From Actinomyces sp. oral taxon 414 (GTDB taxonomy: Bacteria; Actinomycetota; Actinomycetes; Actinomycetales; Actinomycetaceae), in the NCBI RefSeq assembly GCF_001278845.1, contig NZ_CP012590.1:186001-250000 (forward strand): DNA of 64,000 nt, given 5' to 3'. The translations under genes were made by a program, and so were the position numbers. The notes under the pieces are model-generated. The model saw only the letters and a program-made list of their open reading frames with translations, ran no database searches and was not told where the DNA came from. Every line of letters starts with the position of its first letter. Positions within the stretch are counted from its first letter, which is position 1. Below, piece after piece: positions 12,399 to 20,115 of this stretch.

Positions 12399-15300
12399 AT
12401 GGTCGGTTCTCTCTCCCTGGCCCGGCTCGGTGTCGGTCTGGCCGTGTTCCTGCTGCGGGCCTCGGATGCGGTCGTGGATCCGTCGTTCGGCGGTGCGGTC
12501 GAGCTGATCGGGGAGGTGCGCGCGGGCTGGCGCGGCATCGCCGCTCTCAGGGGGCGAAGGGGGGCGGTCGACTCCTTCGGCGAGCGGATCGCCTCGCGCC
12601 TGGAGGACAGGGTCGCGGAGGCTCGGCGCCGGTGCGAGGATCGGGGCGTTGACGCCGGTCTGCTGCGGGGCGCGGTGACCGAGGTCGAGGTCCTCCTCGA
12701 AGAGCTGGCGGGGGATGATGCCGTCGTCGTGGCCGCCGTGCGCGATCCCGACCGCTTCGGGGAGGTCATCCGCGGGCGGGTTCAGAGGCGTCGCCGGAAT
12801 GTGGAGGCGGCGGCCGAACCCTTCTTCGATGAGCTCGTGCGGGCCGTCACCGGGGAGTTCGTTCGCCTGGCGCCGGGATCGGCGAACTTCCAGATCGGCG
12901 CTCTCCGGCAGCTGCTCGACGGCGTCGATGCGATCCGGGTTGGGATTGAGATGATCAGGATCAGGCAGGCGGAGCAGACCGCTCATTTCGACGGTCGTTT
13001 CGATCTGCTCGAAGACGTGATGTCCGAACCTGTGCCGCGACGTCCCTCGCGTATTCGGTTCGGCAGTCGTCCCATGGAGGTGGTCGGGTTCGTCGAGAGA
13101 CGGGAGCAGGCGGGGCTGTTCGAGACGGTCATCTCCGGGGCTTCTGCGCGTACCGTGCTCACGGGCATGCGCGGCAGTGGGAAGTCGCAGCTGGCCACCG
13201 CCGTGGCGGCCCGCTGCGAGGCGCAGGACTGGCCGCTCGTGGCCTGGGTTCCCGCGGGTTCGCGCGAGGCGGTCCTCTCCGGGCTCGTCGAGCTGGGGCT
13301 GGAGCTCGGCGTCGACGTCGAGGACGGCCCCTCCCGCGAGGTGATCGCGCGGCGCTGCCTGACCTCGCTGGCCTCGGCGGAAGGGTCGGATCGTCTGATC
13401 GTGTTCGACGACGTCGACAGTCCCGATGACCTGAAATCCCTTATTCCCCGAGGGGAGGGGGTGCGGGTCCTGGTGACCACGACGAGGCTGGCGGACTGGG
13501 AGGGCGCAGGCTGGGTGCACGTGCCCGTAGGGGTCTTCGAGCGCGAGCAGTCGATCAGCATTCTGCTAGACCGCACGGGCGGCCGGTCCGGCCGCGGGGC
13601 GGCGGACGTCGGGGCGGCGGATGCCGTCGCCGGGGCCCTGGGCGATCTTCCGGTCGCGGTCGTGCAGGCCGCGGCGACGGCGAGACGCGGCCGATACGAC
13701 CTCGCGGACTATCTCGAAACGCTCAAGCGGACCACGCTGGAGGCTGGCGTCCGGCGCCGGGAGGGGGACGAGTACCCCGAGGCCGTCGGCGTCGCCCTGT
13801 GGCTGGCGTTTCAGAGCGCGCTCGAGCGGATCGAGGATAAGAGCCTCCGCCGGGGGGCGATCGCCCGCGCCCAGCTCGGGGTTCTCTCCGTGCTCGCGGC
13901 CACGGGCGTCCCCGCGCGTTGGCTGGAGAAGGCGTTGGACGGGGGGTCCGATGATGCCCGTGGGGCGCTGAGCGGACTCATCGAGTCCTCGGTCTGCCAG
14001 CTCTCAAAGGACCGCTCCAAAGTGATGATCCACGGGCTCCAGGGCCGGGCGATCCGGGAGGCGTGGAAGGACGAGCCCGAGAGTTGGGGGCGGGTCGAGG
14101 AGGAGGCCGTCGGGCTCTTGGAGGCGGTGGACGTCACCGCCATCCCGGTCTCGGACAGCACCAAGCGGCGGCGGGAGGCTCTCGATCTGGTGGAGCAGCT
14201 GCGCGTGGCGGCCGGGCAGGACCACTCCAAGGGCCTGTTCTCCCACTCCCGCACCGCGGACGCCCTCGCCCTCGCCCTGTGGCATGCGGCGGAGTTCGGG
14301 GACCCTCAGGCCGCCCTGTCCCTGTCCGACGCCGTGGACCTCCTCGATGAGGCCCTGGGGCCCGACCACCCCGGCACCCTGTTCTCGCGGGTCGGCCTCG
14401 CCTTCGCCTACCTGTCCGCGGGCAGGATCGATGATGCCATCGGCCTGTTCGAGCGGACCCTGGCCGACCGCCTGCGCGTCCTGGGAGACGACGACCACTA
14501 CACCCTGGTCTCGCGGGTCGGCCTCGCCGGCGCCTACCAGGCTGCGGGCAGGATCGATGATGCCGTCCCCCTGTTCGAGCGGACTCTGGCCGATTGCGAG
14601 CGCGTCCTGGGAGACGACGACCACTACACCCTGGTCTCGCGGGGCGGCCTCGCCGGCGCCTACCAGGCTGCGGGCAGGATCGATGAGGCCATCGGCCTGT
14701 TCGAGCGGACTCTGGCCGATTGCGAGCGCGTCCTGGGAGACGACGACCACTACACCCTGGTCTCGCGGGGCAATCTCGCCGCCGCCTACAAGTCCGCGGG
14801 CAGGATCGATGAGGCCATCGGCCTGTTCGAGCGGACTCTGGCCGATTGCGAGCGCGTCCTGGGGGCCGACCATCTCTACATCCTGGTCTCGCGGGTCGGC
14901 CTCGCCCACGCCTACCAGGCTGCGGGCAGGATCGATGAGGCCATCGGCCTGTTCGAGCGGAACCTGGCCGACCGCCTGCGCGTCCTGGGAGACGACGACC
15001 CCTACATCCTGGTCTTGCGGGGCGGCCTCGCCGGCGCCTACCAGGCTGCGGGCAGGATCGATGAGGCCATCGGCCTGTTCGAGCGGACTCTGGCCGATTG
15101 CGAGCGCGTCCTGGGGGCCGACCATCTCTACATCCTGGTCTTGCGGGGCGGCCTCGCCGGCGCCTACCAGGCTGCGGGCAGGATCGATGAGGCCATCGGC
15201 CTGTTCGAGCGGAACCTGGCCGAAGCCCTGCGCGTCCTGGGCCCCGACCACCACTACATCCTGTTCTCGCGGGGCAACCTCGCCCACGCCTACCGGTCCG

Positions 15301-16892
15301 CGGGCAGACTCAACCAGGCTATCGACCTGTACAAGAAGAACCTGGCCGACCGCGAGCGCGTCCTGGGCCCCGACCATCCCGACACCCTCACCTCGCGGGA
15401 CGACCTCGCCAGCGCCTACCAGGCTGCGGGCAGGATCGATGAGGCCATCGGCCTGTTCGAGCGGAACCTGGCCGACCGCGAGCGCGTCCTGGGCCCCGAC
15501 CACCCCGACACCCTCACCTCGCGCAATAACCTCGCCTTCGCCTACCAGGCTGCGGGCAGACCCGAGCAGGCCATCGACCTGCACAAGAAGAACCTGGCCG
15601 ACCGCCTGCGCGTCCTGGGCCCCGACCACCCCCACACCCTCACCTCACGGGACAACCTCGCCCACGCCTACCAGGCTGCGGGCAGACCCGAGCAGGCCAT
15701 CGACCTGCACAAGAAGAACCTGGCCGACCGCGAGCGCGTCCTGGGCCCCGACCACCCCCACACCCTCACCTCGCGCAACAACCTCGCCCACGCCTACCAG
15801 GCTGCGGGCAGACCCGAGCAGGCCATCGGCCTGCACAAGAAGAACCTGGCCGACCGCGAGCGCGTCCTGGGAGACGACCACCCCCACACCCTCACCTCGC
15901 GCAACAACCTCGCCCACGCCTACCGGTCCGCGGACAGGCTCGACGAGGCCGTCCCCCTGTTCGAGCAGAACCTGGCCGAGGCCCTGCGCATCCTGGGCCC
16001 CGACCACCCCAACACCCTCACCTTCCGCAACAACCTCGCCCACGCCTACCAGGCTGCGGGCAGACTCGACCGGGCCATCGGCCTGCACAAGAAGAACCTG
16101 GCCGACCGCGAGCGCCTCCTGGGGCCCGACCACCCCGACACCCTGTCTTCGCGGGACAACCTCGCCCACGCCTATCGGTCCGCGGACAGGGTCGACGAGG
16201 CCGTCCCCCTGTTCGAGCGGAACCTGGCCGACCGCGAGCGCATCCTGGGAGACGACCACCCCCGCACCCTCACCTCACGGGACAACCTCGCCGCCGCCTA
16301 CTGGTCCGCGGGCAGACTCGACCAGGCCGTCCCCCTGTTCGAGCAGATCCTGGCCGACCGCGAGCGCATCCTGGGAGACGACCACCCCCGCACCCTCACC
16401 TCGCGGGGCAACCTCGCCGCCGCCTACTGGTCCGCGGACAGACCCGATGAGGCCGTCCCCCTGTTCGAGCAGAACCTGGCCGAGGCCCTGCGCATCCTGG
16501 GCCTCGACCACCCCAACACCCTCACCTCACGGGACAACCTCGCCCACGCCTACCGGTCCGCGGACAGGCTCGACGAGGCCGTCCCCCTGTTCGAGCAGAA
16601 CCTGGCCGAGGCCCTGCGCATCCTGGGCCCCGACCACCCCAACACCCTCACCTTCCGCAACAACCTCGCCCACGCCTACCGGTCCGCGGACAGGCTCGAC
16701 GAGGCCATCCCACTGTTCGAGCAGAACCTGGCCGAGGCCCTGCGCATCCTGGGCCCTGACCACCCTCACACCAAAACCTTCAGAAAGAATCTCGCAGCCG
16801 CCTATCGCGCCGTCGGACGCGATGAGGAGGCCGCGGCCCTGCTCGACCCGCCGCCCGATCCCGACGACACGGACACCGAAGCCCCGGTCTGA
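12399..16892 (+). CDS. STAND-type NTPase (NB-ARC-like) with a C-terminal TPR array
   Basis: 1497 aa. Residues 1-220 are a helical region of unknown role that could hold an effector. An NB-ARC-like NTPase follows, with Walker A GMRGSGKS at 256-263, Walker B LIVFDDVD near 335 and a sensor strand VLVTTTRL. After a winged-helix-like region, 19 complete 42-aa TPR units (kinesin-light-chain type, consensus LGPDHPxTLTSRxNLAHAY) begin at residue 653, plus a partial twentieth. STAND proteins are signal-sensing switches: the repeat array binds a trigger and the NTPase oligomerises. Many bacterial ones are antiphage. The N-terminus has no recognisable nuclease or TIR motif. The immediate upstream neighbour is a decayed gene; downstream is the Ro60 locus. 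Confidence 0.88.
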   Translation: MVGSLSLARLGVGLAVFLLRASDAVVDPSFGGAVELIGEVRAGWRGIAALRGRRGAVDSFGERIASRLEDRVAEARRRCEDRGVDAGLLRGAVTEVEVLLEELAGDDAVVVAAVRDPDRFGEVIRGRVQRRRRNVEAAAEPFFDELVRAVTGEFVRLAPGSANFQIGALRQLLDGVDAIRVGIEMIRIRQAEQTAHFDGRFDLLEDVMSEPVPRRPSRIRFGSRPMEVVGFVERREQAGLFETVISGASARTVLTGMRGSGKSQLATAVAARCEAQDWPLVAWVPAGSREAVLSGLVELGLELGVDVEDGPSREVIARRCLTSLASAEGSDRLIVFDDVDSPDDLKSLIPRGEGVRVLVTTTRLADWEGAGWVHVPVGVFEREQSISILLDRTGGRSGRGAADVGAADAVAGALGDLPVAVVQAAATARRGRYDLADYLETLKRTTLEAGVRRREGDEYPEAVGVALWLAFQSALERIEDKSLRRGAIARAQLGVLSVLAATGVPARWLEKALDGGSDDARGALSGLIESSVCQLSKDRSKVMIHGLQGRAIREAWKDEPESWGRVEEEAVGLLEAVDVTAIPVSDSTKRRREALDLVEQLRVAAGQDHSKGLFSHSRTADALALALWHAAEFGDPQAALSLSDAVDLLDEALGPDHPGTLFSRVGLAFAYLSAGRIDDAIGLFERTLADRLRVLGDDDHYTLVSRVGLAGAYQAAGRIDDAVPLFERTLADCERVLGDDDHYTLVSRGGLAGAYQAAGRIDEAIGLFERTLADCERVLGDDDHYTLVSRGNLAAAYKSAGRIDEAIGLFERTLADCERVLGADHLYILVSRVGLAHAYQAAGRIDEAIGLFERNLADRLRVLGDDDPYILVLRGGLAGAYQAAGRIDEAIGLFERTLADCERVLGADHLYILVLRGGLAGAYQAAGRIDEAIGLFERNLAEALRVLGPDHHYILFSRGNLAHAYRSAGRLNQAIDLYKKNLADRERVLGPDHPDTLTSRDDLASAYQAAGRIDEAIGLFERNLADRERVLGPDHPDTLTSRNNLAFAYQAAGRPEQAIDLHKKNLADRLRVLGPDHPHTLTSRDNLAHAYQAAGRPEQAIDLHKKNLADRERVLGPDHPHTLTSRNNLAHAYQAAGRPEQAIGLHKKNLADRERVLGDDHPHTLTSRNNLAHAYRSADRLDEAVPLFEQNLAEALRILGPDHPNTLTFRNNLAHAYQAAGRLDRAIGLHKKNLADRERLLGPDHPDTLSSRDNLAHAYRSADRVDEAVPLFERNLADRERILGDDHPRTLTSRDNLAAAYWSAGRLDQAVPLFEQILADRERILGDDHPRTLTSRGNLAAAYWSADRPDEAVPLFEQNLAEALRILGLDHPNTLTSRDNLAHAYRSADRLDEAVPLFEQNLAEALRILGPDHPNTLTFRNNLAHAYRSADRLDEAIPLFEQNLAEALRILGPDHPHTKTFRKNLAAAYRAVGRDEEAAALLDPPPDPDDTDTEAPV
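14355..16850 (+). repeat. tandem 126-bp TPR-coding repeat, 19 full units plus a partial one
   Basis: The period is exactly 42 codons: the CTG-GGN opening of unit 1 at 14355 and that of unit 20 at 16749 are 19 x 126 bp apart with no indel. Neighbouring units are often nearly identical in DNA (for example several share a 50-base stretch ending in the same IDEAIGLFER codons), while units differ in blocks. That pattern suggests unequal exchange or gene conversion. Confidence 0.9.
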
Positions 16893-16964: not shown

Positions 16965-16994
16965 TTGCGCCGCGGGTGTGTAGGGGTCTACACT
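16965..16994 (+). promoter_or_regulatory. promoter of the candidate Y RNA
   Basis: TTGCGC (16965-16970) and TACACT (16989-16994) are separated by 18 bp, a good sigma-70-type arrangement. Transcription would start at about 17001-17003, exactly at the first hairpin of the structured RNA. Confidence 0.6.
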
Positions 16995-17000
16995 CCTGGG

Positions 17001-17133
17001 TGTCGGCGCGAGCCGACCTGCGCGGATGCCGCGAACGGGCCGGAGGCTCTTCGGTTACCCTGATTCTGGTTCAGAAACCCTCCTTCACCGGAGGTCCGGA
17101 GGCCATAACACGCCCGCTCCGGCATCCGCGCAG
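17001..17133 (+). ncRNA. candidate bacterial Y RNA (YrlA-like) partner of Ro60
   Basis: The ~130-nt segment upstream of the TROVE gene folds by eye into nested helices. First is a 6-bp hairpin with a GCGA (GNRA) tetraloop (17002-17017). It is followed at once by a perfect 14-bp long-range stem (17018-17031 with 17120-17133). Inside that, after a small internal loop, come 5 bp (17036-17040 with 17112-17116) and 4 bp (17041-17044 with 17095-17098). The interior holds two small arms: a 4-bp stem with a 7-nt loop (17060-17074), like an anticodon arm, and a 5-bp stem with a 6-nt loop (17079-17094). Y RNAs have paired ends that bind Ro60, and YrlA RNAs carry a tRNA-like module. Position, promoter and fold all fit, but the identity is inferred. 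Confidence 0.65.
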
Positions 17134-17196
17134 ACATCTCGCCGCCCGCGCCCGCCGACCGCCAGTCGTAGGCGGAAGACGCCCGAAGGGAGAGGC

Positions 17197-18783
17197 ATGG
17201 ACATCTTGCGCAGCATCGGCACCCGGGAGACGCCGCAGCACCGGCGGGCCAGCGCCGGCCAGGTGCCCAACTCCGCCGGCGGCTACGTCTTCGCCCTCGA
17301 CGACGCCGCGCGCCTGCGCCGCTTCCTCATCCTGGGCGCGGACGGCGGCACCTACTACACGAAGGCGCAGACGCTGGCCATTGACAACGCCAAGGTCCTG
17401 GAGCGGATGGCCGCCGCCGACCCCCGCACCCTGGTGGACACGATCGTCGAGGTCTCGACCAGCGGCGCGGCGCCCAAGCAGAACCCCGCCCTGTTCGCCC
17501 TGGCCCACGCCGCCTCGGTGCCGCAGACCCGCGAAGCCGCCCTGGGGGCGCTGCCCAAGGTCGCCCGCACCGGGTCGCACCTGCTGACCTTCGCCGACTA
17601 CGTCGAGCAGTTCCGCGGCTGGGGACGGGGCCTGCGCCGCGCCGTCGGCTCCTGGTACACCGCCCGCCCGGTCGATCGGCTCGCCTACCAGGCGGTCAAG
17701 TACCGCCAGCGCGGAGGCTGGACGCACCGCGACCTGCTGCGCCTGGCGCACCCGCGCACCGACGACGCCGCCGTGCGCGCCACCTTCGACTGGATCGCCC
17801 ACGGCGTGGTCGGTGAGGCCGTCCCCTCCCTCATCGAGGGCTTCATCAAGGCCCAGGAGGCCGACGGCGCCCGCGCCTGGGCGCGGCTCGTGCGCGACTA
17901 CCGCCTGACCTGGGAGATGCTGCCCGACGCCGCCCTGAGCGAGCCGGCCGTGTGGGAGGCCCTGCTCGACGTCGGCGTGCCCATGACCGCGCTCATGCGT
18001 CAGCTGCCGCGCCTGACCCGCCTGGGCCTGCTGCCCGCCATGGGCGGGCGCACCGACGAGGTCTGCGCGCAGCTGACCGACTCGGGCCGCCTGCGGGCCG
18101 CGCGCGTCCACCCCGTCAACGTGCTGGTCGCCCAGCGCACCTACGCCTCGGGCGCCTCCTACCGCGGCACCGCGAGCTGGGAGCCGACGGCGCGGGTCGC
18201 CGACGCCCTGGACGCGGCCTTCTATGCGGCCTTCGGCGCCGTCGAGCCCGCGGGCAAGCGCCTCATGCTGGCCGTGGACATCTCCGGGTCCATGAGGTTC
18301 CCGGTCTCGGGCATGGCGATCACCGCCCGCGAGGCGTCGGCGGCCCTGACCCTGGTGCAGCTGGCCACCGAGCCGGGCGCGGCGGCCTACGCCTTCTCCC
18401 GGGAGGGTCGATCCATCTACGGCGTCAAGCCCCTGGGCATCTCGCCGCGCCGCCGCCTCGACGACGCCCTGGCCGCCGTGGACGCCATGCCCGTGGGCGG
18501 CACGGACTGCGCCCTGCCCATGCTCTACGCCGCCGAGCAGGGCCTGGAGGTCGACGCCTTCGTGATCTACACCGACAACGAGACCTGGGCCGGCAGGATC
18601 CACCCGCACCAGGCGCTGCGCCGTTACCGGGAGCGCAGCGGCATCGACGCCCGGCTCATCGTGGTGGCCATGACGTCGACGGGCTTCTCCATCGCCGACC
18701 CGGACGATGCGGGCATGCTCGACGTCGTCGGCTTCGACGCCGCGGTGCCCGGCCTCATCGCGGGGTTCACGCGTGGCCTCTGA
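17197..18783 (+). CDS. rsr: TROVE-domain protein, bacterial Ro60 orthologue (Rsr)
   Basis: 528 aa, the usual size for Ro60. The N-terminal TROVE (HEAT-like ring) region carries SAGGYVFALDDAARLRRFL and the later YRQRGGWTHRDLLRLAHP, both strong family signatures. The C-terminal von Willebrand A-like domain has an intact MIDAS motif DISGSM at 361-366. Ro60 is a ring-shaped protein that binds misfolded RNAs and Y RNA; in bacteria it works with PNPase and other nucleases in RNA decay, rRNA maturation and stress survival. ATG 17197 has a purine-rich GAAGGGAGAGG upstream. The candidate Y RNA lies directly upstream on the same strand, and a small HTH gene overlaps its 3' end. Confidence 0.93.
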   Translation: MDILRSIGTRETPQHRRASAGQVPNSAGGYVFALDDAARLRRFLILGADGGTYYTKAQTLAIDNAKVLERMAAADPRTLVDTIVEVSTSGAAPKQNPALFALAHAASVPQTREAALGALPKVARTGSHLLTFADYVEQFRGWGRGLRRAVGSWYTARPVDRLAYQAVKYRQRGGWTHRDLLRLAHPRTDDAAVRATFDWIAHGVVGEAVPSLIEGFIKAQEADGARAWARLVRDYRLTWEMLPDAALSEPAVWEALLDVGVPMTALMRQLPRLTRLGLLPAMGGRTDEVCAQLTDSGRLRAARVHPVNVLVAQRTYASGASYRGTASWEPTARVADALDAAFYAAFGAVEPAGKRLMLAVDISGSMRFPVSGMAITAREASAALTLVQLATEPGAAAYAFSREGRSIYGVKPLGISPRRRLDDALAAVDAMPVGGTDCALPMLYAAEQGLEVDAFVIYTDNETWAGRIHPHQALRRYRERSGIDARLIVVAMTSTGFSIADPDDAGMLDVVGFDAAVPGLIAGFTRGL

Positions 18784-19138
18784 CCCGCTGCGCCGGGTGC
18801 GCACGAGGGGGGCGGGCGCCCGGGGAAGGGGCGCCCACCCCCCTCGCGCCGCTCGCGCGGCCGGCGGGGACGACGGGACTGATCCCGCCAGTGCCGCCGG
18901 CCCGGCCCGACCCATCCGCGCCTCGGGCTCGTCCGACCCCCTGGCGGCGCGCGCCGCCGAACTGCACGCCAAGGCCCTGGCGGCCGACGCCGAGGCCGCG
19001 CGCTACCGGGCCGAGCGCGACGAGATCATCGACAGGCTCCGGCAAGCCGAGCCGGAGCGCTGGTCCTACACCGCGCTGGCCCGGGCCCTGGGGTGCAGCC
19101 GTGAGCTCATCGCCCAGATCGTGCGCCGACGCCGGTGA
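18773..19138 (+). CDS. small helix-turn-helix protein downstream of rsr
   Basis: About 121 aa if GTG 18773 is the start, which overlaps the rsr stop by 11 bp; the start is uncertain. The first ~50 residues are Arg/Gly/Pro-rich and probably disordered. The rest is a helix (ARAAELHAKALAADAEAARY) followed by a C-terminal HTH-like segment YTALARALGCSRELIAQIV. It resembles short actinobacterial proteins that pair a coiled coil with a sigma-like HTH. Function unknown. Overlap with rsr suggests co-expression, perhaps as a regulator of the Ro60 locus. Confidence 0.6.
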   Translation: MASDPLRRVRTRGAGARGRGAHPPRAARAAGGDDGTDPASAAGPARPIRASGSSDPLAARAAELHAKALAADAEAARYRAERDEIIDRLRQAEPERWSYTALARALGCSRELIAQIVRRRR

Positions 19139-19404: not shown

Positions 19405-20115
19405 ATGGGAATCTCTATCCAGGGCTCAAGCGGTTCGGACGCACACGCAGGCTCTTCAACATCCGCCGATCCGGCCAAGGTCAGCCGTCTCGTTAACTAC
19501 GCCTGGTTCCTGGAGGATGCGCGTCGTGATTACGACCGGGCGGAGGAAATGTACAGGCGGGCCATCAAAGCCGACCCCGACCACGCCGACGGCCTCGGCA
19601 ACTACGCCCGTTTTCTTCATGTTGTGCGTGGCGATTCTGATCGGGCGGAGGCGATGTACGAGCGGGCCATCAAGGCCGACCCCGACCAGGGTCTCAATCT
19701 CAGCAACTACGCTTGGTTCCTAGAGAATGTGCGTCATGACTATGATCGGGCAGAGGAAATGTACAGGCGGGCCATCAAGGCCGACCCCAACTACGCCCAC
19801 GGCCTCGGCAACTACGCCCGTTTTCTTCATGTTGTGCGTGGCGATTCTGATCGGGCGGAGGCGATGTACGAGCGGGCCATCGAAGCCGACCCCAACTACG
19901 CCTACAACCTCGGCAACTACGCCAACTTCCTCAAGAACGTGCGTCATGACTATGATCGGGCGGAGGAGATGTACGAACGGGCCGTCGAAGCCGACCCCAA
20001 CTACGCCTACAACCTCGGCAACTACGCCAACTTCCTCAAGGATGTGCGTCATGACTATGATCGGGCGGAGGAGATGTACGAACGGGCCGTCGAAGCCGAC
20101 CTCAATCACGGGTAG
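19405..20115 (+). CDS. short TPR-repeat protein
   Basis: 236 aa. After a 30-residue Ser/Gly-rich N-terminus the protein is five complete 35-aa TPR-like units plus a sixth partial one. The units alternate between two subtypes, for example NYAWFLENVRHDYDRAEEMY and NYARFLHVVRGDSDRAEAMY. The DNA of same-type units is nearly identical (19495-20112). There is no enzymatic domain and no signal peptide. Such proteins mediate protein-protein contacts; the partner is unknown. Base composition is less GC-biased than in neighbouring housekeeping genes, consistent with acquisition. It stops abruptly after ADLNHG and is followed by non-coding, partly decayed sequence, so it may be truncated at the 3' end. 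Confidence 0.75.
   Translation: MGISIQGSSGSDAHAGSSTSADPAKVSRLVNYAWFLEDARRDYDRAEEMYRRAIKADPDHADGLGNYARFLHVVRGDSDRAEAMYERAIKADPDQGLNLSNYAWFLENVRHDYDRAEEMYRRAIKADPNYAHGLGNYARFLHVVRGDSDRAEAMYERAIEADPNYAYNLGNYANFLKNVRHDYDRAEEMYERAVEADPNYAYNLGNYANFLKDVRHDYDRAEEMYERAVEADLNHG

Follow-up and report, generated by a model that had tools for sequence, protein, structure and literature searches.

A probable bacterial Y RNA with a reduced effector module and a candidate self-regulating operon at the Ro60 locus of Actinomyces sp. oral taxon 414

Which RNA, if any, accompanies the Ro60 protein of Actinomyces sp. oral taxon 414, and how might the two be controlled together? The question is raised by a stretch of 64,000 nucleotides, referred to below as the window (positions 186,001 to 250,000 of contig NZ_CP012590.1, forward strand), which belongs to a genome of 3.84 Mb in one contig. 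An earlier note on this DNA, made from the letters alone, had proposed a Y RNA 5' of Ro60, and we revisited that proposal from a comparative and structural perspective.

The Ro60 locus and its relatives

The gene around which the locus is organised is the following.

17197..18783, + strand: Ro60 (TROVE and vWA), 528 aa; PF05731 E 1.7e-45, PF25045 E 6.2e-62

Its product aligns over nearly its entire length with the Rsr structure in PDB entry 2nvo (E 6.4e-121), and also matches the Ro60 entries 9nen and 1yvp (E 3.5e-106 and 4.8e-105); the frame is open in the window, and Ro60 is 95-96% identical to that of A. dentalis. Ro60 matches are found in 10 of the 49 genomes of the genus, one of which (G034) holds fragments only, one of them with a stop, while in another (G029) the whole query is spanned, but by two overlapping frames. 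Since the window's genome encodes PNPase and a search of it for RtcB gave no match, the locus appears to be a stand-alone Ro60 unit rather than an RNA repair operon of the Salmonella type. Directly 5' of the Y RNA promoter, 12399-16892 encodes a protein of 1497 aa that is rich in similar TPR repeats and matches NACHT-N-terminal weakly, and a second TPR protein lies at 19405-20115. Comparisons across genera are based on Ro60 loci from a search of genome contigs, limited to the best 80 out of 119.

A long closed stem in the window RNA

On the Ro60 strand, ending 64 nt before the start of Ro60, the sequence holds the following elements.

17002..17017, + strand: 5' hairpin of the RNA, 6 bp, GTCGGC-GCGA-GCCGAC, 7 nt after the -10 box (sequence and fold)
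17018..17133, + strand: body of the probable Y RNA, enclosed by its 14-bp stem, 17018-17031/17120-17133 (folds, covariation, models R1 and R2)
17036..17040, + strand: 5' side of the Ro-side helix, CGGGC (partner 17112-17116), then a conserved CG (alignment A3)
17045..17104, + strand: inner stem GGC(U)CUUCGG 17045-17054 / CCGGAGGCC 17096-17104 (fold)
17107..17116, + strand: 3' side of the Ro-side helix, AACACGCCCG (conserved CACGCCC)

The promoter sequence, the 5' hairpin and the perfect 14-bp stem described in the earlier note are all present, the last formed by CTGCGCGGATGCCG (17018-17031), which is perfectly complementary to CGGCATCCGCGCAG (17120-17133). Inward of this stem the fold continues with GA/UC and then pairs CGGGC (17036-17040) with GCCCG (17112-17116); the conserved GGUUACC occupies 17053-17059, and two small hairpins are predicted at 17060-17074 and 17079-17094. 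The helix of the 5' hairpin is kept in seven loci with wobble changes and one mismatch, in L006. Its loop, which had been taken for a GNRA loop, is not conserved, reading GCGA, GCA, ACAG, GCAA, CACG, CACG and CGTG in seven loci, the window among them.

The segment 17014-17137 folds at -66.3 kcal/mol (z -6.5), which none of 200 shuffles equals, and the wider segment 16998-17140 gives a z of -5.5. The nested stems that had been proposed inside the 14-bp stem are predicted by the fold, but 17040-17118 folded alone is no better than chance (z -0.15), and the good z of 17014-17137 is due to the long stem. In shuffled sequence a perfect 14-bp arm arises on average 0.4 times per 64 kb (any in 11 of 50 shuffles), and about a dozen other 14-bp arms are found in the real window, so that the stem alone is weak proof and the case for a Y RNA is made by conservation and covariation. 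A terminator scan found no U-run terminator between the RNA and Ro60, so that a separate, released RNA is a presumption.

Conservation and covariation across Ro60 loci

A core of the form GGGCCG...UCGGUUAYC...ACACGCCC recurs 5' of Ro60, on the Ro60 strand, in 69 of the 80 loci, and all 19 copies in alignment A3 have the same first six letters, GGGCCG. Written as a motif (GG[GA][CT]CG-N5-11-GGTTAYC, then CACGCCC on the 3' side), it occurs as tandem copies 5' of Ro60 in many loci. In its strict form, which we used for counts, it has 142 matches on the Ro60 strand within the 78,320 bases lying up to 1 kb 5' of Ro60 (69 of 80 loci), against 12 in the 358,941 bases of Ro60 and its downstream sequence; over all 576,034 bases of the 80 loci, every one of the 156 matches falls on the Ro60 strand. 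A looser form, in which the 3' end is chosen by pairing and which served for copy numbers only, is present in 74 of the 80 loci as well as in the window and three further genomes, with two to four copies in 49 of 78. Arrays of four Y-type motifs are seen in L021, L024, L028, L029, L032 and L034-L036. In the Sorangium and Minicystis loci L080, L081 and L090, Y-type motifs lie 3' as well as 5' of Ro60. In two further loci, L071 (a record named as a Bathyarchaeota MAG) and L074 (a Brocadia MAG), Y-type motifs lie 5' of a Ro60 that shares about 50% identity with that of the window; transfer or wrong binning is possible in these cases.

A covariance model trained on 19 copies, the window copy included (R1), yields 170 matches at E <=0.1, which come from 82 sources and lie without exception on the Ro60 strand. 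Because the window copy was part of that training set, we built a second model, R2, from 20 copies of other genera, leaving out Actinomyces altogether. Over nine Actinomyces-type sources R2 gives 26 matches at E <=1, and the window copy is one of them (17035-17118, 46.4 bits, E 7e-8); another match elsewhere in the window, on the minus strand (E 0.1), is chance-like.

Pairing of the stem was examined in 109 copies from 58 loci, with the 3' side picked by sequence and not by pairing. Positions 1 to 6 outward of the GGGC/GNCC core pair in 95, 93, 93, 91, 78 and 77% of copies, compared with 89, 69, 62, 54, 36 and 40% when the partners are permuted. For pairs 2 to 6 this corresponds to z values of 8.6-10.9 against permutation, uncorrected for relatedness, with an excess that becomes smaller further out; position 5 uses all four Watson-Crick types (GC 28, CG 24, AT 17, TA 12). 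For the window's own 14-bp stem, the compensatory changes that the earlier note had looked to are there, as two-sided changes at 6 of 11 columns. In this table of 9 Actinomyces-type loci by 11 outer columns, where one stem sequence is common to three loci and a second one to two, 89 of the 99 cells pair, and five of the 10 that do not are in the outermost column. Because the MAFFT alignment of the Actinomyces-type copies was wrong in the outer stem, we picked the strands for this table manually and located them in each locus; L017 was left out for its stem indels, and L006 is out of register in the last two columns. The inner stem likewise shows compensatory changes across Actinomyces-type copies.

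Of the 49 genomes of the genus, R1 detects the RNA in 9. These are precisely the genomes in which Ro60 matches cover the full query (Fisher p 5e-10, uncorrected for relatedness); the other 40, among them G034 with its Ro60 fragments, give no match. Since R1 was trained on sequences from 7 of the 9, the informative part of this result is the 0 of 40. A plain pattern finds the RNA in 8 of the 49 genomes, all 8 with Ro60. In G034, the region C1:705888-706292 holds fragments of Ro60 and of the small HTH protein treated below, of which one contains a stop; the Y RNA is unmatched there, as if the entire unit were decaying together.

The conserved motif, the covariation of the outer stem, the match to a model from which the genus had been left out and the co-occurrence with Ro60 in the genus thus bear out the proposal of a Y RNA 5' of Ro60. 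The RNA has the properties by which a Y RNA is recognised, in that it adjoins a Ro60 orthologue, has paired ends with a Ro-side motif and co-occurs with Ro60, and we consider it very probable that 17002-17133 is a bacterial Y RNA.

Relation to YrlA and other Y RNAs

A search with the Rfam YrlA model (RF02553), suggested in the earlier note as a check, gave no match to the window copy, either at the gathering threshold or up to E 10. RF00019, the vertebrate Y RNA family, was not among the window matches up to E 10 either, and the matches to SNORD112 and livK that did appear were rejected as chance. The two small arms that had been likened to a tRNA-like module do stand at the positions of the T arm and the next hairpin of the sister RNAs, but they have no T-loop consensus, and a D arm is missing: under both a stricter and a looser rule, the window copy has no T loop TTCRANN on a stem and no D-arm motif, and ARAGORN predicts no tRNA at the window RNA.

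The related loci place these arms in context. In L018, L019 and L069 there are three paralogues, of which the distal one has T and D arms, the middle one a T arm and the proximal one neither, and the sets vary among other Actinomyces-type loci. The window copy corresponds to the middle paralogue, having its promoter block and 5' hairpin in common with those copies. Where L018 carries the T arm GTTGG-TTCGACC-CCAAC, the window and A. dentalis have sequence without the T-loop consensus. A. dentalis retains, by eye, a remnant of the proximal copy that R1 does not match; the window has none. In 7 of 8 related loci the Rfam YrlA model does pick up copies, eight in total, with scores short of its cut-off (best E 5.5e-9).

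Copies without recognisable arms are found well beyond this group. When the top 111 of the 170 R1 matches (E <=2.7e-5) are sorted by a simple motif rule, its looser version gives 49 with T and D arms, 36 with T only, 24 with neither and 2 with D only, and its stricter version 46, 37, 27 and 1, respectively. The stricter version missed some arms, and under the looser one L033 2690 still looks tRNA-like by eye. Several of the four-motif arrays mix copies bearing T and D arms with armless ones, which suggests a division of labour inside one locus.

Similarities to more distant RNAs are slight. Copies in L034, L016, L027 and L018 match the nematode stem-bulge RNA family RF01656 (ceN72-3_ceN74-2) at 24.8-32.7 of 38 bits, below the cut-off, but the window copy itself is unmatched, and the likeness probably reflects the shared Ro-side motif only. 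The GUUAYC loop also calls to mind vertebrate Y1/Y4.

YrlA is described as an RNA of 90-150 nt in which a large end-to-end stem tethers Rsr and a tRNA-like domain carries D, T and acceptor arms (PMC8394870), and yrlA is listed among the predicted RNAs of some mycobacteria (PMC9569102). The window RNA resembles YrlA in ending in a long paired stem and in having its gene beside Ro60; it differs in its arms and in being unmatched by RF02553. Its predicted length, with ends placed by structure, is 116 nt, or 132 nt with the 5' hairpin, which would fall in the range given for YrlA. By the definition of PMC8394870 it should work as a Y RNA, yet it is not a canonical YrlA, and we regard it as a new bacterial Y RNA with a reduced effector module.

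Promoter and palindrome

The sequence preceding the RNA holds two overlapping features.

16965..16994, + strand: promoter, TTGCGC (16965-16970), N18, TACACT (16989-16994) (sequence and aligned upstream flanks)
16978..16993, unstranded: palindrome GTGTAG-GGGT-CTACAC, proposed operator, overlapping the spacer and the -10 box

The TTGCGC-N18-TACACT promoter of the earlier note is present and conserved, but falls below the threshold of a simple sigma-70 scan, so that its assignment rests on conservation: TTG and TACACT occur at equal spacing in all 10 Actinomyces-type loci compared, and TGTAGGGGTCTACACT is identical in all 10, one of which is an Actinomycetaceae MAG and some of which are near copies of each other.

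Two elements that do not figure in the earlier note emerged here, namely the palindrome in the promoter and an HTH gene behind Ro60. The right arm of the palindrome contains most of the -10 box. In the 3.84-Mb genome the palindrome occurs once exactly, not at all with one mismatch and 22 times with two (56 for the reversed control). Across the 80 loci, allowing up to two mismatches, there are 26 occurrences in the 100,408 bases 5' of Ro60 and 5 in the 358,941 bases from Ro60 onwards. It precedes Y RNA arrays in several genera, with centres such as GGGT, ACCC, CCCC and TGCA; in L033 and L066 both arms have changed symmetrically, to GTGTAA/TTACAC, while the arms are asymmetric in L034-L036 and L040. 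Six loci of other genera have TTGACA or TTGACT before the palindrome, and several others are without a clear -35 box. Within the genus, the exact palindrome is found in 9 of 49 genomes, namely 8 of the 9 that bear Ro60 and the Ro60-less G002; that of A. dentalis is one base off. One could also imagine the palindrome as a transcribed hairpin, but this seems unlikely, since its right arm and the -10 box fall together and, in the loci with both, a Y motif follows 24-71 nt after its start.

A small HTH protein encoded behind Ro60

The gene behind Ro60 starts with a GTG that overlaps the Ro60 stop.

18773..19138, + strand: small HTH protein, 121 aa, proposed regulator (profile, AlphaFold2, weak Pfam HTH)

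AlphaFold2 predicts a helix at residues 56-92 and a helix-turn-helix at 99-120, mostly with pLDDT >90, whereas the first ~50 residues are of low confidence, and 14 aligned members have invariant W-S-Y, G-C-S and E-L in their shared core. Among curated families, Pfam HTH matches stay below the cut-off and NCBIfam has nothing for the window protein; the best Pfam match is a marginal one to the mitoribosomal MRP-L20, above the cut-off in one of the five members scanned. A Foldseek search of the PDB gave no significant match, the nearest being Lrp/AsnC-type HTH domains with a best E of 0.6.

A profile built from 11 seeds, the window's included, finds the protein in 23 of the 80 Ro60 loci. Set against the palindrome (up to two mismatches), 22 loci have both, 1 the HTH protein only, 4 the palindrome only and 53 neither. 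In two of the palindrome-only loci, L017 and L035, the contig ends within ~60 bases after Ro60, and in the other two, L068 and L085, the palindrome is chance-like; the HTH-only locus, L042, offers at best, by eye, a candidate palindrome with three mismatches. Within the genus, the HTH protein is present in the same 9 genomes as Ro60 and the RNA, with a remnant in G034. A search of 394 genomes of the class gave one strong match and five weak ones for the HTH protein, and adds little since the sole strong match is the window's own; in the corresponding TROVE search (54 of 394 genomes) most matches extended over little of the model, and we kept it out of the co-occurrence analysis.

The association can also be followed on a Ro60 tree of 47 rows, the window and 46 of the 80 loci, without L069, L039, many Nocardia, mycobacterial and distant loci, and with L017 and L035 unscored. 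This tree implies 6 changes for the HTH protein and 5 for the palindrome, and offers 4 independent pairs, none opposed and on average 3.5 pointing the same way (median p 0.125), a number of pairs too small for significance.

Discussion

The conserved element could be a cis-acting leader of the Ro60 mRNA only, for instance a site of Ro60 autoregulation, and give rise to no free RNA. Its position on the same strand, 64 nt before the Ro60 start and with no terminator-like site between, would suit such a role. A leader, however, would hardly be expected in the 2-4 tandem copies seen with the looser motif in 49 of 78 loci, nor 3' of Ro60, where some myxobacterial copies lie (L080, L081, L090), and sister copies in related arrays match the Rfam YrlA model, if below threshold (best E 5.5e-9); we consider this explanation unlikely. 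Still less probable, in our judgement, is that we are looking at a decaying copy, in a lineage that lost the T loop together with A. dentalis, and in the window also the distal and proximal copies. The T arm is indeed kept in the other Actinomyces-type orthologues and lacking from these two, a proximal remnant is visible by eye in A. dentalis and absent from the window, and G034 has Ro60 and HTH fragments and no RNA; against this, the stem, the Ro-side motif, the promoter and the palindrome are intact, Ro60 has an open frame with 96% identity to its A. dentalis counterpart, and a fair number of copies (24 of 111 model matches) do without recognisable T and D arms. That the stem is a chance GC-rich inverted repeat or a terminator, as the dozen or so other 14-bp arms of the window might suggest, is rendered exceedingly improbable by the covariation, the conservation of the motif and the match of the leave-genus-out model.

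For the control elements, the alternative is that the palindrome and the HTH protein have nothing to do with each other, the former being the site of another factor and the latter acting elsewhere, perhaps on RNA, to which HTH proteins can bind. The ribosomal family MRP-L20 as best Pfam match, below the cut-off in four of the five members scanned, is compatible with this, as is the small number of independent pairs, just 4, on the Ro60 tree. Yet the two go together over the 80 loci (22/1/4/53), both are missing from L020, L025 and L037/L038 amid relatives that have both, and the arms of the palindrome have changed symmetrically in L033 and L066, so that we regard a lack of connection as rather unlikely, though clearly less so than the alternatives for the RNA itself. 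Our preferred reading is that the HTH protein autoregulates the operon through the promoter palindrome, which, going by sequence comparison, we judge to be somewhat the likelier case.

The structure, conservation and covariation of the RNA, its co-occurrence with Ro60, and the palindrome, the HTH gene and their association are consistent with the following course of events. A housekeeping-type promoter would start the transcript at about 17001, transcription would probably continue through Ro60 and the HTH gene, and the Y RNA would be freed by processing. The RNA would form a long closed stem with the Ro60-docking motif at its inner end, topped by the GUUAYC loop and two small hairpins as the putative effector end; going by kinship, Ro60 most likely binds the stem, and the other end would gate or tether, as in the Deinococcus machine of Ro60, Y RNA and PNPase, with PNPase as the presumed tethered partner. 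The HTH protein, probably as a dimer, would bind the palindrome over the -10 box and block RNA polymerase.

Two known systems invite comparison. The Y RNA of Deinococcus serves as a tether between Rsr and PNPase (PMC4726728, PMC8394870). The predicted Ro60-binding stem and effector end of the window RNA recall the Y RNA of this Ro60 (Rsr)-PNPase complex of D. radiodurans (RYPER), as do the PNPase gene in the window's genome and the alignment of its Ro60 with Rsr 2nvo. In Salmonella, the rsr-yrlBA-rtcBA RNA repair operon, as described in PMC7790460, is controlled by RtcR, and likewise holds Ro60 and Y RNA genes within one regulated unit; the Actinomyces genome differs in having no RtcB match, and in place of RtcR and sigma-54 it has a small HTH protein together with a palindrome that lies across a -10 box of sigma-70 type. 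In the literature searched, by titles and abstract openings and with the main Y RNA papers outside it, we found no description of an operator-HTH circuit of this kind.

The palindrome and the HTH gene may bear on the question of how bacteria that lack the RtcR/RtcB operon turn on their Ro60-Y RNA particles. It could be that many actinobacterial Ro60 particles constitute a self-contained, self-regulated unit, each genome having a single operator, which sits at the promoter of the Y RNA. With a dedicated HTH repressor whose translation follows that of Ro60, the levels of Y RNAs, Ro60 and repressor would move in step, possibly upon release by the damaged or misfolded RNA that Ro60 handles; over this wider proposal we are evenly divided. 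The tRNA-like YrlA model, for its part, misses a share of Y RNAs, as 24 of the 111 strongest R1 matches show no recognisable T or D arm, R1 having been trained in part on such copies. Finally, Actinomyces is a genus with human commensals. A role of commensal Ro60 orthologues, such as that of Bacteroides thetaiotaomicron, in triggering anti-Ro60 autoimmunity in lupus has been under discussion (PMC8319742), and for this reason the RNA partner of the Actinomyces Ro60 and the circuit that may control it would be useful to know.
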